Shown here: piece by piece, positions 2,375 through 29,083 of the stretch
How positions within the stretch are numbered: the stretch's first letter is position 1
Layout of the letters: the number at the start of each line of letters is the position of its first letter
Assembly (NCBI GenBank): GCA_009619095.1
Contig: WJOT01000036.1
Coordinates: forward strand, 1 to 38,443
DNA length: 38,443 bases
Source: Clostridia bacterium
GTDB taxonomy: Bacteria; UBA6262; WVXT01
Reading direction: 5' to 3'
Made by a program: the position numbers and the translations under genes
The notes under the pieces: generated by a model
The model's input: the letters and a program-made list of their open reading frames with translations, nothing else
Database searches by the model: none
What the model was told of the DNA's origin: nothing

Positions 2375-2743
2375 TTAGTAACCCCTTTTATGAATCTCTT
2401 CCTCAGTGAAACCTAAATAATGGGCTATTTCGTGAATTACCGTGCGATTAATCTGCTCTTTTATTGCTTCGCTCACCTTTGTACCAAATACTTTCTCAAA
2501 ACTTTCTTTATAGAGTTCTATTCTTGTCGGCTCAGTTTGAATGGAAAAGACCGTTTTGTGTTTCAAGGACATGCCAACAAAAATACCAAAAACGGTTTTA
2601 TTCGGGAATTTTTCCTTCATTCCCGGGGGAGCATTTTCTCGCGGAAGGATTTCTATTTTTTCTTCTCTCAGAATTTTTCTGTATTTGTCAGGAATACCCT
2701 CAAGAGCTTCCTGAACCATTTTTTCAAATTCCTCTATTTGCAT
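2375..2743 (-). CDS. Small zincin-type metallopeptidase (Zincin_1/DUF1025 family)
   Basis: The 122-residue product ends with the zinc-binding signature HEIAHYLGFTEEEIHKRGY, which gives the HExxH pair and a third ligand region seen in the minimal zincin family PF06262. The family is about 110-130 residues long, so this copy is full length. Members are predicted zinc proteases of unknown substrate. It starts at ATG 2743 with a weak AGGA site four bases upstream. The gene lies between two copies of a 122-bp repeat and has a 98% identical partner at the left window edge. No partner gene is cotranscribed. The family assignment is good, while peptidase activity is not proven. Confidence 0.88.
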   Translation of the reverse strand: MQIEEFEKMVQEALEGIPDKYRKILREEKIEILPRENAPPGMKEKFPNKTVFGIFVGMSLKHKTVFSIQTEPTRIELYKESFEKVFGTKVSEAIKEQINRTVIHEIAHYLGFTEEEIHKRGY

Positions 2744-2796
2744 CGTTCCTGTTTTATAAATGATTTTCTATATTGGTGTCCAAAAAGTGTCCAAAA
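2529..2796. repeat. Long direct repeat, copy 2 (pair with 1-268)
   Basis: Matches 1-268 without gaps. It includes most of the metallopeptidase gene and about 50 bases of upstream sequence with the promoter. Beyond 2796 the copies diverge at once. The part of this copy left of 2529 cannot be compared because copy 1 leaves the window. Confidence 0.95.
2767..2794 (-). promoter_or_regulatory. Putative promoter of metallopeptidase copy 2
   Basis: TTGGAC, 16-base spacer, TATAGA on the minus strand, about 24 bases before the ATG. The site is inside the duplicated block, so gene and promoter were copied together. Confidence 0.45.
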
Positions 2797-2914
2797 GCGG
2801 AGTATTTTCGTGGATTTCTATTATATATATCGGGTCGACCCTATAGGGCTGTGTGGATCAGATATATCTATAACACGCAATCCTATGAAAAATAGAAAAA
2901 TAGGAAAAATAGGA

Positions 2915-3036
2915 AAAATAGGGACAGCGACTATTTATCCTCCTGAGGCGGATGGATCTCCATTTCAAAACTTCAAAAATCAAGCCCTAAATCAATTATC
3001 ATGGTTAAAAATCACTCTGACCCCTTTTTTAATAGT
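2915..3036. repeat. 122-bp noncoding direct repeat, copy 2 (pair with 2239-2360)
   Basis: See 2239-2360. This copy is preceded by three degenerate tandem AGGAAAAAT units at about 2893-2920 and by small palindromes (GGGTCGACCC near 2830). A plus-strand reading frame runs through it but is not conserved with the other copy. Confidence 0.9.
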
Positions 3037-3061
3037 ATTCTACAAAAATCTTTTGCAAAAA

Positions 3062-3095
3062 GCAAACAAAAAACCCTGAACATTATTGCTCAGGG
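3062..3095 (-). terminator. Rho-independent terminator for the 3191-3949 pair
   Basis: On the minus strand a CCCTGA/TCAGGG stem (3095-3090 with 3079-3074, 10-base loop) is followed directly by a T-rich tract (TTTTTTGTTTG). It lies about 95 bases after the stop at 3191, and no other minus-strand gene ends here. Confidence 0.7.
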
Positions 3096-22898: not shown

Positions 22899-23735
22899 TT
22901 AAAGACCATGTATTTGCTTAACACTTTGAATAGCTTCCTTTAGCACCTTCTGAACATCCCATCCCTTACCCTGTTCCAGAAGCTCAAGCATAAATACCCC
23001 TTCGTATTTAACCAATTTCAATGTCTGGACAAAGATTTGCCAGTTTATATTTCCTATACCAGGAATATTGTGGTCGTCAGAGGTTCCAAAATTATCAGAA
23101 ACATGGAGGCTTACAATCCAATCCTTAAACTTTTTAACTACATCGTTAACGTTCTCGGCCAAATTTGCGTGGGATGTATCAAGACAGATTCCTACTTTTT
23201 GAGAATTTATTTCCCAAATTAACTTCAACAGATCGACCGAATACCCGCATAAAATATGGGGAAGTTGATTCTCTAAAGCCAATCTTATGGGCTTATCCTG
23301 GCAATATTTCAGGAGCTCATCGATGCTCTTTTTCGCCTGAGACAGGCGATACATCTTTTGCGTTAAATTGTCAAAATGTGAGGAAGCAGTACTGGGATGG
23401 AATACTAATATGTTTCCCTCAAGAAATTCTAAAACATCTATTGCTTTTTTGATTTCAGAGATGGCGAAAGCTCTCTTCTCTTCCTCCACCTGGGAAATAT
23501 CCAGTTCTTCAGAGAAAGGAGCATGTAAAGAAACCACTCGTAAAGTGAGCTCCTTAAGTTTCTCTTTCAATTTCCTGGTGTAATCCCAATTATGGTAATC
23601 GTAGTGAATCCACTTCCCTTCTTTTCCTATCCTAGCCCAAACTTCAATATTGTCAAATCCTGCTTCTTTTATTAACTGTAAGGATTCTATCAAATCACTT
23701 TTATATAGAATGCCGGTGGAAAGCCCGATTTCCAT
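22899..23735 (-). CDS. Sugar phosphate isomerase/epimerase-like TIM barrel protein
   Basis: The 278-residue protein belongs to the xylose-isomerase-like TIM-barrel superfamily (AP_endonuc_2). It runs from EIGLSTGILYK through VVSLHAPFSEE, ILVFHPST, LALENQ, VGICLDTSHANLAENV and VSLHVSDNFG to GVFMLEL, which supplies the His, Glu and Asp metal ligands. The superfamily contains isomerases, epimerases and endonuclease IV; the substrate cannot be named. I chose ATG 23735, with GGAGG 11 bases upstream, because the long upstream extension runs through repeat sequence and overlaps the previous gene's end. It lies 15 bases before hisS and is likely cotranscribed with it. Confidence 0.88.
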   Translation of the reverse strand: MEIGLSTGILYKSDLIESLQLIKEAGFDNIEVWARIGKEGKWIHYDYHNWDYTRKLKEKLKELTLRVVSLHAPFSEELDISQVEEEKRAFAISEIKKAIDVLEFLEGNILVFHPSTASSHFDNLTQKMYRLSQAKKSIDELLKYCQDKPIRLALENQLPHILCGYSVDLLKLIWEINSQKVGICLDTSHANLAENVNDVVKKFKDWIVSLHVSDNFGTSDDHNIPGIGNINWQIFVQTLKLVKYEGVFMLELLEQGKGWDVQKVLKEAIQSVKQIHGL

Positions 23736-23776: not shown

Positions 23777-23838
23777 GATGAAGGGATAATCTACAAATGT
23801 TCCCGATGAATCGTAAAAAAGTGCCTGTCCCCTTTTTA
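23777..23838. repeat. Truncated palindromic element and GTGCCTGTCCCC motif
   Basis: GATGAAGGGATA at 23777-23788 matches the ends of the element at 15981-16109 and is followed by CTACAAATGTTCCCGATGAATCG without its closing arm. Directly after comes AAAAAAGTGCCTGTCCCC (about 23814-23831), which reappears inverted at 28955-28974. The stop codon of the primase-like gene lies at its end. Confidence 0.6.
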
Positions 23839-25224
23839 TAAATTGAAGCCGCAGTCTGGTCTCCAGCAGTAGCCTTTTCTTCTATGGGAAAGACAATTAA
23901 GTTCATCTCCATCCACAGAACCATCCCTCAGGAGCCCAGCAAAAGTTCTCACATAAAAGTCTGCTCTTGTAGCCGCATCATACTTCAACCACAAATTCCC
24001 CCACCCATAATCTCGCTCAAATTTTGACCTTACGAGTCCGGCAATATGTTTGGGATGCCAACCCATCCCTGAGAGAACCTTGGTTAAAATCTGCATGTTA
24101 GTCGGCTTCAAAAGGTGTTCATTGGGAACTCTCAAAGCATGAGAAACACAGGGAGGAAGGCTATGTAAATCGAAACGGTCGTATGTTTTTCTCCAATCCC
24201 AATAGGGATTATGTTCTTCGGAATCAAAGTATTTATGGAACTGATAGAGTCGCGACCTTATATAACTTCTAATTAAATTTTCAAACCCTTTAGATTGGTC
24301 GGGTATTTCTGTCGTGCCCCTGGTAGCATACTCTATAGCCTGATGAAAATTCTGTCGAATCTTTAGGAGCTCTGGCAAGGAATCCAGTCCTCCACGAGGC
24401 AGAGCTACTATCACCGGAGTCCTTTCGGACACTTCATCTCCTACTTTATACCTTTCAACTTTATGTTTCTGGTAACTACTAAATGGACAGCGAATATCCC
24501 GTAAATAAATGGGATCACCATACATCGATAAGTCTAAAGAAATGGCTTCCCTTCCCTTTTTTCCCGGCTGGCAAGCCACTTCAGTACACACAACAGGAAT
24601 ACTCGTTTTCCCCCTTACTTTCTTCATAACTAAATGGGCTAAGTATTCCATTAACCTACCCATCCCGTTGAAAATGCGGCCATGAGAGAAAGGGACTGAA
24701 CGATGTCGCCTTCCCGAAGAAGTAGCGTATTTGCCAGCGAGGGTATCCTCTATTCTTCCAATTTTCTCCAGTTTCTTCTCTGTTCCCGTTCCCAGGGCTA
24801 CACGAGAAGTGAAGTGGTACCCCCTGCCAGTCATAACCACTAAGGGAATTATATTGAATCTATAAAAAACTGTCAAAACAGCATTATAAACCGGTTCCAA
24901 CTTCTGGAAGGTCTCCTGAGGATATAAATAAGGCTCCCCGGGAAAGTCAAGGTTAAAATATTCTATATCGAGAATACTTAATATACTTTGCCGGTCCCAA
25001 ATTGACCTGAATATGTCCAGACCCTTCTCCAGAATCCAGGAAAATCCATCCTGGGAAGTAGAAAGGAATCCCTCTGGAGATAGACCTGCCTGGCGTAAGA
25101 ATTCCCCATACCCAACCAGGTACTCAGCAGTGAATGCTGAAAAATCGCCTTCTATCCCACCACAATATTCGCCAATCCGTTGCCGGACATTGGAGTCTTT
25201 ATAAAAATCTGCTTGTCCAAACAT
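23836..25224 (-). CDS. Archaeo-eukaryotic primase-like protein with C-terminal cysteine domain
   Basis: I assign the 462-residue protein to the archaeo-eukaryotic primase (AEP) superfamily from motif order. LSILDIEYF holds an acidic pair (Asp86, Glu88), VVMTGRGYHF resembles the SGxGxH motif (His137), and ISLDLSMYGDPIYLRDIRCP followed by FSSYQKHK gives Asp231 and a basic/Ser/Lys cluster. The last 105 residues resemble a PriL-type C-terminal domain: PPCVSHALRVPNEH (Cys359), a helical part, then Cys444, Cys453 and Cys458, four cysteines that could hold an Fe-S cluster or zinc. AEP enzymes make RNA or DNA primers or fill gaps. It has its own strong promoter and no clear ribosome site at ATG 25224. 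Its function here (repair, a mobile-element remnant, defence) is unknown. Confidence 0.65.
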   Translation of the reverse strand: MFGQADFYKDSNVRQRIGEYCGGIEGDFSAFTAEYLVGYGEFLRQAGLSPEGFLSTSQDGFSWILEKGLDIFRSIWDRQSILSILDIEYFNLDFPGEPYLYPQETFQKLEPVYNAVLTVFYRFNIIPLVVMTGRGYHFTSRVALGTGTEKKLEKIGRIEDTLAGKYATSSGRRHRSVPFSHGRIFNGMGRLMEYLAHLVMKKVRGKTSIPVVCTEVACQPGKKGREAISLDLSMYGDPIYLRDIRCPFSSYQKHKVERYKVGDEVSERTPVIVALPRGGLDSLPELLKIRQNFHQAIEYATRGTTEIPDQSKGFENLIRSYIRSRLYQFHKYFDSEEHNPYWDWRKTYDRFDLHSLPPCVSHALRVPNEHLLKPTNMQILTKVLSGMGWHPKHIAGLVRSKFERDYGWGNLWLKYDAATRADFYVRTFAGLLRDGSVDGDELNCLSHRRKGYCWRPDCGFNL

Positions 25225-25286: not shown

Positions 25287-25315
25287 ACTATACACAATTT
25301 TCGTTTTTAAGTCAA
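25287..25315 (-). promoter_or_regulatory. Strong promoter of the primase-like gene
   Basis: TTGACT (25315-25310) and TATAGT (25292-25287) are spaced by exactly 17 bases on the minus strand. Transcription would start near 25280, giving a leader of about 56 bases. That leader has no good Shine-Dalgarno sequence at the ATG and contains a three-codon mini-frame. Confidence 0.65.
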
Positions 25316-25470: not shown

Positions 25471-27795
25471 CTATCCCCGACCCTGGTAACTTCTTATATC
25501 CTCTCTCCGTGCAGATGAGGCAAGTATAAGGAAGCTACTTAATTTGAGCATAACTACTAACATACAGGTCTGTAAAAGCCCCAGAACAGGTAAGAGCACC
25601 ACTCCCCCAATAATCCCACCTATCCACCCGCCAAAAAGGTCAGCACTATAAAGTAGCCCCGCGGTTTTGCCTAAATTAGAATCTCCACCTAAATATATTT
25701 TGTTTGCCAAAGGAAACTCTGCACCGATGAGAAGGCCGGAGAGGAAAGAAAGTAGTAAAAAAATTATTTGTAAGGGAAAGAATACTGCCGGCCGGTCCAA
25801 GTAGGCACGGAGAATAAAAAATACTGCGGGAAGAATTAGGGAAAAGAGAATTATAGCCAATTCTATCTTTAAAAATAAAGAGATATCTTTCTTAATTCTT
25901 TCTAAGAGTAAGGTGATTCTTAGACTCCCCACCCCTATACCCACCATCAAAGCAGTTACCAAGAGTCCTATCCAATAAAAGACATATCCGTAAAGTGCTT
26001 GAAAGCTAAAGATTAGAGCAAGGTCAAATATCATGCCGGCAAAGCCAGTGGTGACAATGCATATAGGAATAGTGACCCTGGAGAGATTTTTGATTTTAGA
26101 ACCAAAGAGCAAAAAGCCCAGGGTGAAAAAGACAATAGGAATAAAGAAAAGCGAAAGGTTCACCTTTCCCAGGGATGTGAACAGTTCTCTCATGGAAGGA
26201 GAAAATAAGGCATTCCAATAAGAGAGGCTATAGAATACTCCTAAAGGTTTAAAATCCTGATTAGTCTTCTCTGTTCCGCCTTTGAGAGAATCTAGAAACC
26301 AATTGAGCCATCTCGGGTGTAACTTATATTCAATATAACCTGGAAGGATAAGGTTCAGGTTAAGGTTTCGTTCTTCCAATCTTTTGCTTAATTGGCTGGG
26401 AGCGAGGGAATTGACCTCCGGGGAAAGAGAGGCGAGGAAAAGGTTTGTGCTATCTCCGGGAATTATCCGTATATGAGGATAGACCTCCTTAAGAGTATTG
26501 AGAATACAGCTATTGAGATTCTTCAATTCCTCACTCAAATAACTCAAAGAGCCGGGGAGGCTCATAACCAATATGGACTGTTCTTTTAGTCTATTTCTGA
26601 CCAGAAAGAAGAACTCTTTGGTAAAAAGCCTGTTTACCTGTAGGTCTTGGGGATTAGACAAGCCCACTAAAACCAAATCATATTTGCGAGAAGTCTTTTT
26701 GGCAAATAGCCTTCCATCAATGTATTCGATGTTTACCCTTGGGTCATTCAATTCAGCTTCGGTCAACGGGGTGGGGAATTTCTTCACTACTTCCAACAAT
26801 AAGGGGTCTATTTCCACATAGTCAACTCTTTCTACAGGGTGTTTTAAGACTTCACTTATTAAGCCCCCTGCTCCGCCACTGATAATAAGCACTTCTTTGG
26901 GTTGAGGATGAAAGAGCATGGGTAAATGGACAAATTCCTCAACAAAGATTATATCAGGAGTGGGGGTGGTAATTACTGGAATTCCATCGGAGAAGAAAGT
27001 ATATTGTTCCTCTCTCCTGGTAACTGCTACATTACTATATATAGAGTTCTGATAATGGACTACCTCTTCTCCTCTCCATTGCTTGGTTATGGAAGACCAG
27101 TGAATTTTGTCTACTCCCTCGCCAGAAATTAAGAAAGCACTTAGAAACAAAAAGATTAATGATACACTTGCAAGAATTTTAGTAGTCATAATCTGACCTT
27201 TTTGCCAAAAAGGTCCCAACAAGAATAGACACAAGGCAAAATTTAATAAAGCCACGCTTAAGGCTATTTGAAAAGAATGGAAATATGGGATAAGTAGATA
27301 AGTAAAGGCTACTCCTCCCACAATTGTGCCCAAGGTCTCGTATATGTAGACCTTACCGATACCGGTGGCATTATGTTGTTTAGAATGTGAAGCGTATATC
27401 TTGCAGGCAAAAGTAAATAATGCTCCATGGGAAATACTTACCGGTAGAAGAATGAGGAAAGAGGAATAGAGCAGGGGAATTAAACCCAATCCTTCACCAG
27501 GAGTGGCTCCAATGACTTCCTTTAAGATTCGGGTTAAATAGACTGCTAAGGGCAAAGATAGTGAAAAAACTATTTGTAGACAAACGAAGCCTTGGAGTTT
27601 TTTTCTAAGGCGCTCAACCCTTTTTCCTAAAAAGAAGGCACCTATTGCCTCCAGGATAAGCCAGTTAGCCAGTATGATTCCTATGGATAATTCATTGCCG
27701 TAAGAAGTTACCAACCACTCTCTTAAAAGGAGTATCTGGGCAACAAGCCCGCTAAAGCCCATTACCAATATGGCAAAAACAAGACGCTTCTTCAT
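25471..27795 (-). CDS. Membrane protein with spermidine-synthase-like domain
   Basis: The 774-residue protein has an N-terminal set of about six or seven membrane helices (1-230), a Rossmann-fold domain like spermidine synthase (about 245-480, with VLIISGGAGGLISEVLKH and VDYVEIDPLLLEVV), and a second set of about six helices (from about 535). The catalytic aspartates of true aminopropyltransferases (usually in the DxxDP block) are replaced in YDLVLVGLSNPQDLQVNR, so classical spermidine synthesis is unlikely. The gene overlaps the radical SAM gene by ATGA, which means tight coupling. A joint role, for example modification of a membrane or exported molecule, is inferred from this pairing only. 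Confidence 0.88.
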   Translation of the reverse strand: MKKRLVFAILVMGFSGLVAQILLLREWLVTSYGNELSIGIILANWLILEAIGAFFLGKRVERLRKKLQGFVCLQIVFSLSLPLAVYLTRILKEVIGATPGEGLGLIPLLYSSFLILLPVSISHGALFTFACKIYASHSKQHNATGIGKVYIYETLGTIVGGVAFTYLLIPYFHSFQIALSVALLNFALCLFLLGPFWQKGQIMTTKILASVSLIFLFLSAFLISGEGVDKIHWSSITKQWRGEEVVHYQNSIYSNVAVTRREEQYTFFSDGIPVITTPTPDIIFVEEFVHLPMLFHPQPKEVLIISGGAGGLISEVLKHPVERVDYVEIDPLLLEVVKKFPTPLTEAELNDPRVNIEYIDGRLFAKKTSRKYDLVLVGLSNPQDLQVNRLFTKEFFFLVRNRLKEQSILVMSLPGSLSYLSEELKNLNSCILNTLKEVYPHIRIIPGDSTNLFLASLSPEVNSLAPSQLSKRLEERNLNLNLILPGYIEYKLHPRWLNWFLDSLKGGTEKTNQDFKPLGVFYSLSYWNALFSPSMRELFTSLGKVNLSLFFIPIVFFTLGFLLFGSKIKNLSRVTIPICIVTTGFAGMIFDLALIFSFQALYGYVFYWIGLLVTALMVGIGVGSLRITLLLERIKKDISLFLKIELAIILFSLILPAVFFILRAYLDRPAVFFPLQIIFLLLSFLSGLLIGAEFPLANKIYLGGDSNLGKTAGLLYSADLFGGWIGGIIGGVVLLPVLGLLQTCMLVVMLKLSSFLILASSARREDIRSYQGRG

Positions 27796-28940
27796 AACCA
27801 GATTCCCGGGATAGCATGCCCGCAGAACTTACACTCTCCATCTTTTATATTATTGCTCAACACCTGAAAATGGATGCGATGAATTAATTTCTTCCCGCAG
27901 TTTGGGCAAAATGTAGAGTTGTATTTATGGCCAGGGACATTGCCAATTGTGACATATTCTAAACCTGCTTCCTTGGCGATTTTGTGGGCCTTTTCCAATT
28001 TCTTTATCGGGGTTGCCGGTAGGTTGGTGAGTCGATAAGCGGGAGAGAAGCGAGAGAAATGTAGCGGGGTATCTTTGCCCAGATTTTCCTTAATCCAGAG
28101 GCACATCTTTTCTACATCTTGAGGGTTATCATTTAAAGTAGGAATATGTAAGTTTACAATCTCAAGCCAGACGCCTTCCTCTCTAATAACCTTCAGTGTC
28201 CTTAGGACAGGCGCCAGTTCCGCTGAGGATGCATTCCGATAAAATTCTTCAGTAAATCCCTTTAAATCAATAGTAACAGCATCAGTATATTTAAGGAGTT
28301 CCCTCAAGGGCTCGGGATTGAGCGCTCCGTTAGAATGCCAGAGTATCCTTAAGCCCTTCTTCTTGGCAATCCTGGCAATATCATAAACATATTCATAGAA
28401 AGATGTCGGCTCATTATAGGTGAAGGATAGCGTGGGAATCTTTTTATCTAAGGCTATCTTTACTGCATCTTCTGGCGGTAGGTCGTAGGTATAATCCATC
28501 TCTTCAATCGACCTCTGAGAAAGATGCCAGTTGTGGCAGAATTTACAGCGGAAGTTACAGCCAGCAGTACCAAAGCAAAGAATCTGTGTCCCGGGAAGCA
28601 TATGTAGAGCGGGCTCTTTCTCAATGGGATCAATTTGCACTGCTGAGGGCTTTGAATGGACTAAATTATAGAGTCGACCATTTATATTCTGTTTGTTACG
28701 ACAGAAACTTCTTTCTCCCTCTTTGAGAATGCAGCCGCGGAAACAGACCCCACACTGGACTGTATTTGCACCAATCTTCTTATAAAACATCGCTTCTCGT
28801 AGAGAAGATTTTTTCATCTTTGCCCAAGCCTTCCTGGTGAAATTGAATAGACCATGGCATAGCCCCACATAAGCCAGGAATAGACACCCTTTCTTTAAAA
28901 AATCTCGTCGCGAAATCTTCTGTTCAAAAAGTCCTTCCAT
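27792..28940 (-). CDS. Radical SAM protein (AmrS-like) with twin-arginine N-terminus
   Basis: The 382-residue protein has the radical SAM cluster motif CNFRCKFC (Cys128, Cys132, Cys135) inside an AmrS-type sequence: CGVCFRGC and SFCRNK near the N-terminus, LSFTYNEPTSFYEY, ITIDLKGF-like strand and a C-terminal zinc ribbon (CPNCGKK, CKFCGH). Oddly, it starts with KISRRDFLKKGC followed by a hydrophobic stretch, matching a Tat signal (Arg11-Arg12). Radical SAM enzymes need reduced electron donors, so export would be remarkable; the segment may only act as an anchor. I chose ATG 28940, with GAGG eight bases upstream; an in-frame start at 28967 overlaps a repeat. Coupled to the membrane spermidine-synthase-like gene. 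Confidence 0.9.
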   Translation of the reverse strand: MEGLFEQKISRRDFLKKGCLFLAYVGLCHGLFNFTRKAWAKMKKSSLREAMFYKKIGANTVQCGVCFRGCILKEGERSFCRNKQNINGRLYNLVHSKPSAVQIDPIEKEPALHMLPGTQILCFGTAGCNFRCKFCHNWHLSQRSIEEMDYTYDLPPEDAVKIALDKKIPTLSFTYNEPTSFYEYVYDIARIAKKKGLRILWHSNGALNPEPLRELLKYTDAVTIDLKGFTEEFYRNASSAELAPVLRTLKVIREEGVWLEIVNLHIPTLNDNPQDVEKMCLWIKENLGKDTPLHFSRFSPAYRLTNLPATPIKKLEKAHKIAKEAGLEYVTIGNVPGHKYNSTFCPNCGKKLIHRIHFQVLSNNIKDGECKFCGHAIPGIWL

Positions 28941-28954
28941 TCTGCAAACCTCTA

Positions 28955-29083
28955 AGGGGACAGGCACTATTTTTATTGGAGTAGCACCGCTTGCGGTGCG
29001 CTATCGCGAAATCCCGATGAATCGGGACTACTCCATCTCTGCGCCCACCAATCGCGAAATCCCGATGAATCGGGACTACTCCA
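28955..29083. repeat. GGGACAGGCAC motif and two identical 33-bp palindromic repeats
   Basis: AGGGGACAGGCACTATTTT (28955-28973) is the inverse of the motif at 23814. GCACCGCTTGCGGTGC follows at 28984-28999. A 33-base unit containing TCCCGATGAATCGGGA is present identically at 29003-29035 and 29051-29083. The gap separates tldD from the radical SAM gene. Confidence 0.85.

Follow-up and report, generated by a model that had tools for sequence, protein, structure and literature searches.

On its minus strand, at 23836..25224, a 38,443-nucleotide contig from a Clostridia bacterium (WJOT01000036.1, assembly GCA_009619095.1; "the window" below) carries a chromosomal gene of the archaeo-eukaryotic primase (AEP) family. 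The gene starts at an ATG codon and encodes a single chain of 462 amino acids; the source is a metagenome-assembled genome of 1.99 Mb, 86% complete. The assignment draws on the open reading frame (ORF), full-length homologues, an AlphaFold2 model and Foldseek matches to AEPs. The protein is predicted to have an AEP-type fold and keeps both the active-site residues and a set of four cysteines, DnaG is encoded in the same genome, no mobile genetic element (MGE) context is present, and linkage to a TIM-barrel gene recurs. The product is probably a stand-alone chromosomal primase-polymerase of an unnamed AEP family, with a PriS-like core, a four-cysteine tail resembling the C-terminal domain (CTD) of PriL, and a role accessory to DnaG. 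An initial annotation, made from the nucleotide sequence, had proposed a one-chain PriS-PriL-like enzyme; the ORF and the residues it named (D86, E88, TGRGYH with H137, D231, PPC359, C444, C453 and C458) are all present as numbered.

The N-terminal part, approximately residues 1-262 (24439..25224, minus strand; boundary estimated from DSSP analysis of the model), is predicted to form the AEP (Prim-Pol) catalytic domain. The motifs of the superfamily, hDhD/E, sxH and hD, are present, in order, on strands assigned by DSSP. Motif I is D86-x-E88 (24961..24969) on strand 80-91, motif II is T-G-R-G-Y-H137-F (24811..24831) on strand 135-143, and motif III (24460..24534) combines D231, on strand 226-232, with a PriS-like R242xxR245xPxSx[H/Y]xK253, all on the minus strand of the window. 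Across 30 aligned relatives, drawn from several bacterial families and with identity down to 23%, D86, E88, G135, H137, D231, R242, R245, S249 and K253 are invariant, which argues that the catalytic residues are not there by chance. Two positions of the PriS-like motif are less strict: P247 is found in 20 of the 30, and H251 in 19, with Tyr otherwise. The basic stretch after D231 that had been noted initially corresponds to R242, R245 and K253. Its spacing, R-x2-R-x-P-x-S-x-[H/Y]-x-K, is identical to that in residues 235-260 of Sulfolobus solfataricus PriS (SsoPriS), retrieved with a probe for the archaeal motif, in which D235 is the third catalytic Asp. After its own third Asp the window protein reads D231-LSMYGDPIYLRDIRCPFSSYQKHK, and the loop before the motif is 2 residues longer than in SsoPriS.

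The AlphaFold2 model, calculated from an alignment of 26 family members, has a predicted local distance difference test score (pLDDT) of 87 and a predicted template modelling score of 0.89. When the model was searched against the PDB with Foldseek, the first 15 matches were all AEPs (LigD-PolDom, Prim-PolC, the CRISPR-associated Prim-Pol CAPP and pRN1 primase), the first eight with a Foldseek probability of 1.00; significance was moderate, with a best E of 2.3e-3. Structure matches in BFVD were weak, and those with names were largely phage primase/helicase-type proteins. An N-terminal AEP catalytic domain is supported by the fold search, the placement of the motifs on strands, the invariant residues and the signature R..R.P.S.H.K shared with archaeal PriS. 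On these points the initial annotation holds: the catalytic motif order is that of AEPs, and structure prediction, proposed there as a check, returned a fold with the AEP core and not one lacking it.

The remainder of the protein, residues 263-462 (23839..24438, minus strand), is predicted to be a helical domain with four conserved cysteines, and modelled in isolation has a pLDDT of 88. Cys359, in a P-P-C motif (24148..24150), precedes a C-X8-C-X4-C cluster of Cys444, Cys453 and Cys458 (23851..23895), both on the minus strand, for an overall spacing of PxC-X84-C-X8-C-X4-C. The four cysteines are kept in 26 of the 30 alignment rows, at spacings of X77-85, X8 (X15 in one) and X4, and a 27th row, L063, has X84 and X8 with the last Cys displaced by two. 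The other three rows are divergent paralogues (L048:3144-4472, L053:6353-7645 and L058:5005-6297), in which the four-Cys set is gone and the catalytic residues are intact; this joint loss of the whole set suggests that the cysteines form one site. The three group together in the tree on long branches, and the cysteines may have been lost in a single event. These paralogues make up a second branch of the family, and their genomes also carry a four-Cys copy.

The PriL profile of Pfam (PF04104) matched the whole protein with E=0.014 and the C-terminal part with E=0.0027 and 17.6 bits, under the Pfam cut-off of 22.4; apart from this sub-threshold match, the genome yielded none to PriL. Residues 290 and 345 fall at profile positions 42 and 97, and gapless continuation would put C359 at position 111, the position of the first Fe-S Cys of PriL, which in human PriL ends the F-P-P-C at positions 108-111. 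This register, derived from the coordinates, is not independent of the alignment score, as a local alignment itself favours the P-P-C match. The first three cysteines are spaced as in Asgard and yeast PriL, the full patterns being C-X81-C-X8-C-X44-C in one Asgard PriL (PMC12770985) and C-X80-C-X16-C-X39-C in yeast (PMC2852410); in archaea, the region bearing the last PriL cysteines is much reduced (PMC2852410). Homology of the C-terminal domain to PriL is likely, we infer that C359, C444, C453 and C458 bind an Fe-S cluster, and the Fe-S/PriL assignment of the tail as a whole is probable.

Several results weigh against a PriS-PriL-like enzyme. No Foldseek match in the PDB reached E 0.001, and PriS was absent among the matches listed. 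The protein had no match in NCBIfam or PHROGs, and nothing above cut-off in Pfam. The fourth cysteine follows the third at X4, compared with X39-44 in eukaryotic and Asgard PriL. The CTD searched by itself with Foldseek against the PDB gave no significant match of any kind, PriL-CTD included (best E 2), and hhalign of the CTD profile against one human PriL-CTD fragment, identical to PDB 5f0q, failed, scoring below most shuffles. Of the profile searches suggested initially, the one for PriL gave a match only below threshold, and the PriS family DNA_primase_S (PF01896) did not match the AEP protein. The proposal of a PriL-type Fe-S tail is plausible: the sub-threshold match, the C359 register, the spacing of the first three cysteines and the joint loss of all four speak for it, and the fold search and hhalign against it. 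PDB sequence searches (full protein, three alignments and the CTD) gave chance matches only, and the PADLOC defence families noise only. PolpTN2, from plasmid pTN2, was tried as a bridge to PriL and dropped, having no PriL match in the PDB or Pfam itself.

In the mechanism we propose, D86, E88 and D231 would coordinate two divalent metal ions, H137 together with R242/R245/K253 would keep the incoming nucleotide triphosphate in place, and the core would carry out metal-dependent nucleotidyl transfer. C359, C444, C453 and C458 would hold one metal centre, most likely 4Fe-4S, in a PriL-CTD-like arrangement, and the helical domain around them would position the template and/or the initiating nucleotide, as proposed for PriL-CTD. 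The role of that domain is under discussion, and one archaeal primase can do without the cluster, PriX standing in for it (PMC5700102). DnaG is encoded in the window genome and in 12 of the 12 genomes checked, and thus the AEP enzyme is presumably not the replicative primase. From the presence of DnaG, the closeness of the fold to Prim-PolC/LigD-PolDom and the TIM-barrel linkage, we infer a role accessory to DnaG, in repair or in restarting replication. There the enzyme would synthesise short primers or close short gaps, and in some lineages it would work with the adjacent endonuclease IV (EndoIV)-like TIM-barrel protein.

Compared with known systems, the protein shares with archaeal and eukaryotic PriS the catalytic acidic pair, the third Asp, the His and the R..R.P.S.H.K motif, and with PriL the C-terminal PxC, the spacing of the first three cysteines and the sub-threshold PF04104 match described above. 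It differs from PriS-PriL in being one chain instead of two subunits, with no PriL N-terminal domain recognised, in the short distance between its third and fourth cysteines, in occurring in a bacterium beside DnaG, and in a CTD for which Foldseek does not recover the PriL fold. A PriS-PriL fusion has a precedent on an archaeal plasmid, in PolpTN2 of Thermococcus nautili pTN2, a single polypeptide in which an AEP domain is joined to a PriL-like domain with four cysteines predicted to bind Fe-S (PMC3973330, PMC5862659). PolpTN2, however, has 945 amino acids, is plasmid-borne with a helicase, carries extra PriCT-1 and winged-helix domains and lacks the canonical His, whereas proteins of the window family are half as long, are encoded on chromosomes and retain His137; small size and a place on bacterial chromosomes are what set the family apart. 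CAPP resembles it in fold (target-normalised TM-score 0.55-0.57), but no CRISPR genes were recognised in the window and the accessory domains of CAPP were not seen. Judged by the open-access literature, this is an unnamed and undescribed chromosomal bacterial AEP family. If the reading is right, it would offer a minimal, testable single-polypeptide model for the part that the Fe-S domain plays in starting primers, which is debated (PMC5700102), and possibly a new route to DNA repair or restart in several lineages that have received little study.

Approximately 100 nt downstream of the AEP gene, at 22899..23735 on the minus strand, lies a gene for a TIM-barrel protein of the EndoIV/epimerase superfamily (PF01261, E=1.8e-33). 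Orthologues stand directly downstream of the AEP gene in the window genus and in six further genomes (G288, G184, G303, G167, G070 and G310) from five further families, G303 and G167 belonging to one genus, which makes six families with that of the window. At L063 the AEP and TIM frames share 4 nt. When 32 genomes were searched for the TIM protein, the nine top-scoring matches (>330 bits) were exactly the AEP-adjacent genes. The AEP gene has no TIM-barrel neighbour in the UBP18 genome UBA7526, the Tritonobacter phylum and several other genomes. Nine residues are invariant in 8 TIM orthologues (H71, H113, E155, D186, H189, H211, D220, H222 and E251), matching in order all nine metal ligands of EndoIV, which run H,H,E,D,H,H,D,H,E (CpEndoIV, PMC13113976); MJ1311 has the same nine-ligand pattern. 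The nfo model (TIGR00587) scored 28.7 bits against a cut-off of 129.65, the CbiR model matched weakly, and the best models were epimerases (5-keto-L-gluconate epimerase, 74 bits, cut-off 300) and MJ1311. The minor-groove/intercalating Tyr/Leu that follows the first His in EndoIV was not seen, the sequence there being H-A-P-F as opposed to H-x-x-Y-L. The protein may act either as a phosphodiesterase or as an epimerase, and the family is apparently an undescribed subfamily near MJ1311/CbiR/EndoIV. It also has an invariant E-N-x-L-P-H motif.

This neighbour bears on an alternative that we regard as unlikely. In it the AEP protein, like Prim-PolC and LigD-PolDom, is a repair polymerase that fills gaps and never primes de novo, its tail binding a structural zinc, and the TIM barrel is an AP-endonuclease-like phosphodiesterase that makes the gap. 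LigD-PolDom and Prim-PolC are the best fold matches and are likewise small, single-chain, chromosomal AEPs of bacteria, acting in repair in mycobacteria; Prim-PolC with LigC performs short-gap excision repair (PMC7442782, PMC5663958); and the nine invariant ligands in EndoIV order, with the weak nfo and CbiR matches, would fit the partner. Yet the motif after the third Asp is PriS-like, no ligase or Ku gene is adjacent, and the TIM protein lacks the EndoIV Tyr/Leu and scores best with epimerase models and MJ1311. To our knowledge, neither a four-Cys C-terminal domain nor the PriS-like motif is a feature of Prim-PolC/LigD-PolDom. A link to non-homologous end joining of the LigD-PolDom/Ku type was considered and set aside, with Ku in only 1 of 20 genomes checked and no ligase recognised nearby. 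The epimerase-like scores of the TIM barrel, together with the frequent proximity of hisS, would suit an AEP-fold nucleotidyltransferase in small-molecule, tRNA or nucleotide metabolism; this is quite improbable, as the invariant positions, with the PriS motif that follows the third Asp, are typical of AEPs that use a template, and a PriL-like tail would be unexpected.

A stand-alone primase-polymerase beside DnaG remains the preferred reading. Full-length relatives occur in 3 of 6 genomes searched from the window's phylum, in 11 of 44 genomes of the Tritonobacter phylum, in 27 of 384 relatives of a Candidatus Tritonobacter (Auribacterota) genome and, among 386 relatives of the window genome, in 20, which are mostly related at domain level only and come from many families; UBA7526 is among the carriers. 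Loss of the gene in the congener G005 is not claimed, as hisS was not found there either and an assembly gap is possible. In UBA7526 and in 11 of the 11 positive Tritonobacter-phylum genomes the gene is present in tandem, as full-length copies A then B that share a contig and are separated by no more than a few hundred bases (L012/L033, L011/L014 and similar pairs). Active sites and cysteines are intact in both, and B, approximately 40% identical to the window protein, has lost none of the catalytic residues or cysteines. The tree (midpoint-rooted, for drawing only) places A and B apart from each other; the duplication is therefore probably older than the split of these lineages, with the window genus keeping A only, and A and B possibly form a heterodimer. 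A wider proposal, that these proteins constitute a cellular, non-mobile bacterial lineage of complete one-chain PriS/PriL-CTD-like Fe-S primases beside DnaG, with tandem A/B copies in some lineages and, in others, coupling to an EndoIV-like protein as a priming or repair module, is put forward tentatively.

Bacterial PrimPol-PV1 AEPs are reported to be nearly exclusively borne on MGEs, and PriL to be nearly exclusive to chromosomal replication primases (Kazlauskas et al., PMC5862659). The window family differs from the PrimPol-PV1 primases: the absence of helicase, integrase and phage genes noted initially is true of the window and of the related loci read by ORF translation, no relatives were found in the phage, plasmid and viral-contig sets, the archaeal PriS motif as a DNA pattern was absent from viral contigs, and a Pfam search of the protein gave no match to PriCT. 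That the gene is an MGE replication primase, left behind or domesticated, would agree with its patchy distribution (the 20 of 386 relatives) but is highly improbable given the lack of relatives on such elements, the housekeeping surroundings that differ between lineages, and the retention of A and B, apart in the tree, in UBA7526 and 11 of 44 Tritonobacter-phylum genomes.

The neighbours named initially were partly correct. The gene hisS lies next but one to the AEP gene, and is often nearby in related loci, but only one member of the radical SAM "pair" is of that type, encoding an AmmeMemoRadiSam system enzyme (27792-28967; 336 bits, cut-off 220); the gene adjoining it is membrane spermidine-synthase-like. 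Nor did the strong promoter ascribed to the AEP gene survive: TTGACT-17-TATAGT (25315..25287) is unremarkable, the region holding 7 such sites against 5.5 ± 2.5 expected. The AEP coding sequence itself contains a 12/12 match to the sigma-70 consensus, TTGACA-17-TATAAT (24848-24876, minus strand). Elsewhere in the window, two plus-strand ORFs, 9-302 and 2420-3079, share a long near-identical stretch (NGKDRFVFQGHANKNTKNGFIREFF...) as part of a duplicated segment, and a putative small zinc-protease-like ORF (2375-2743) lies opposite this stretch.
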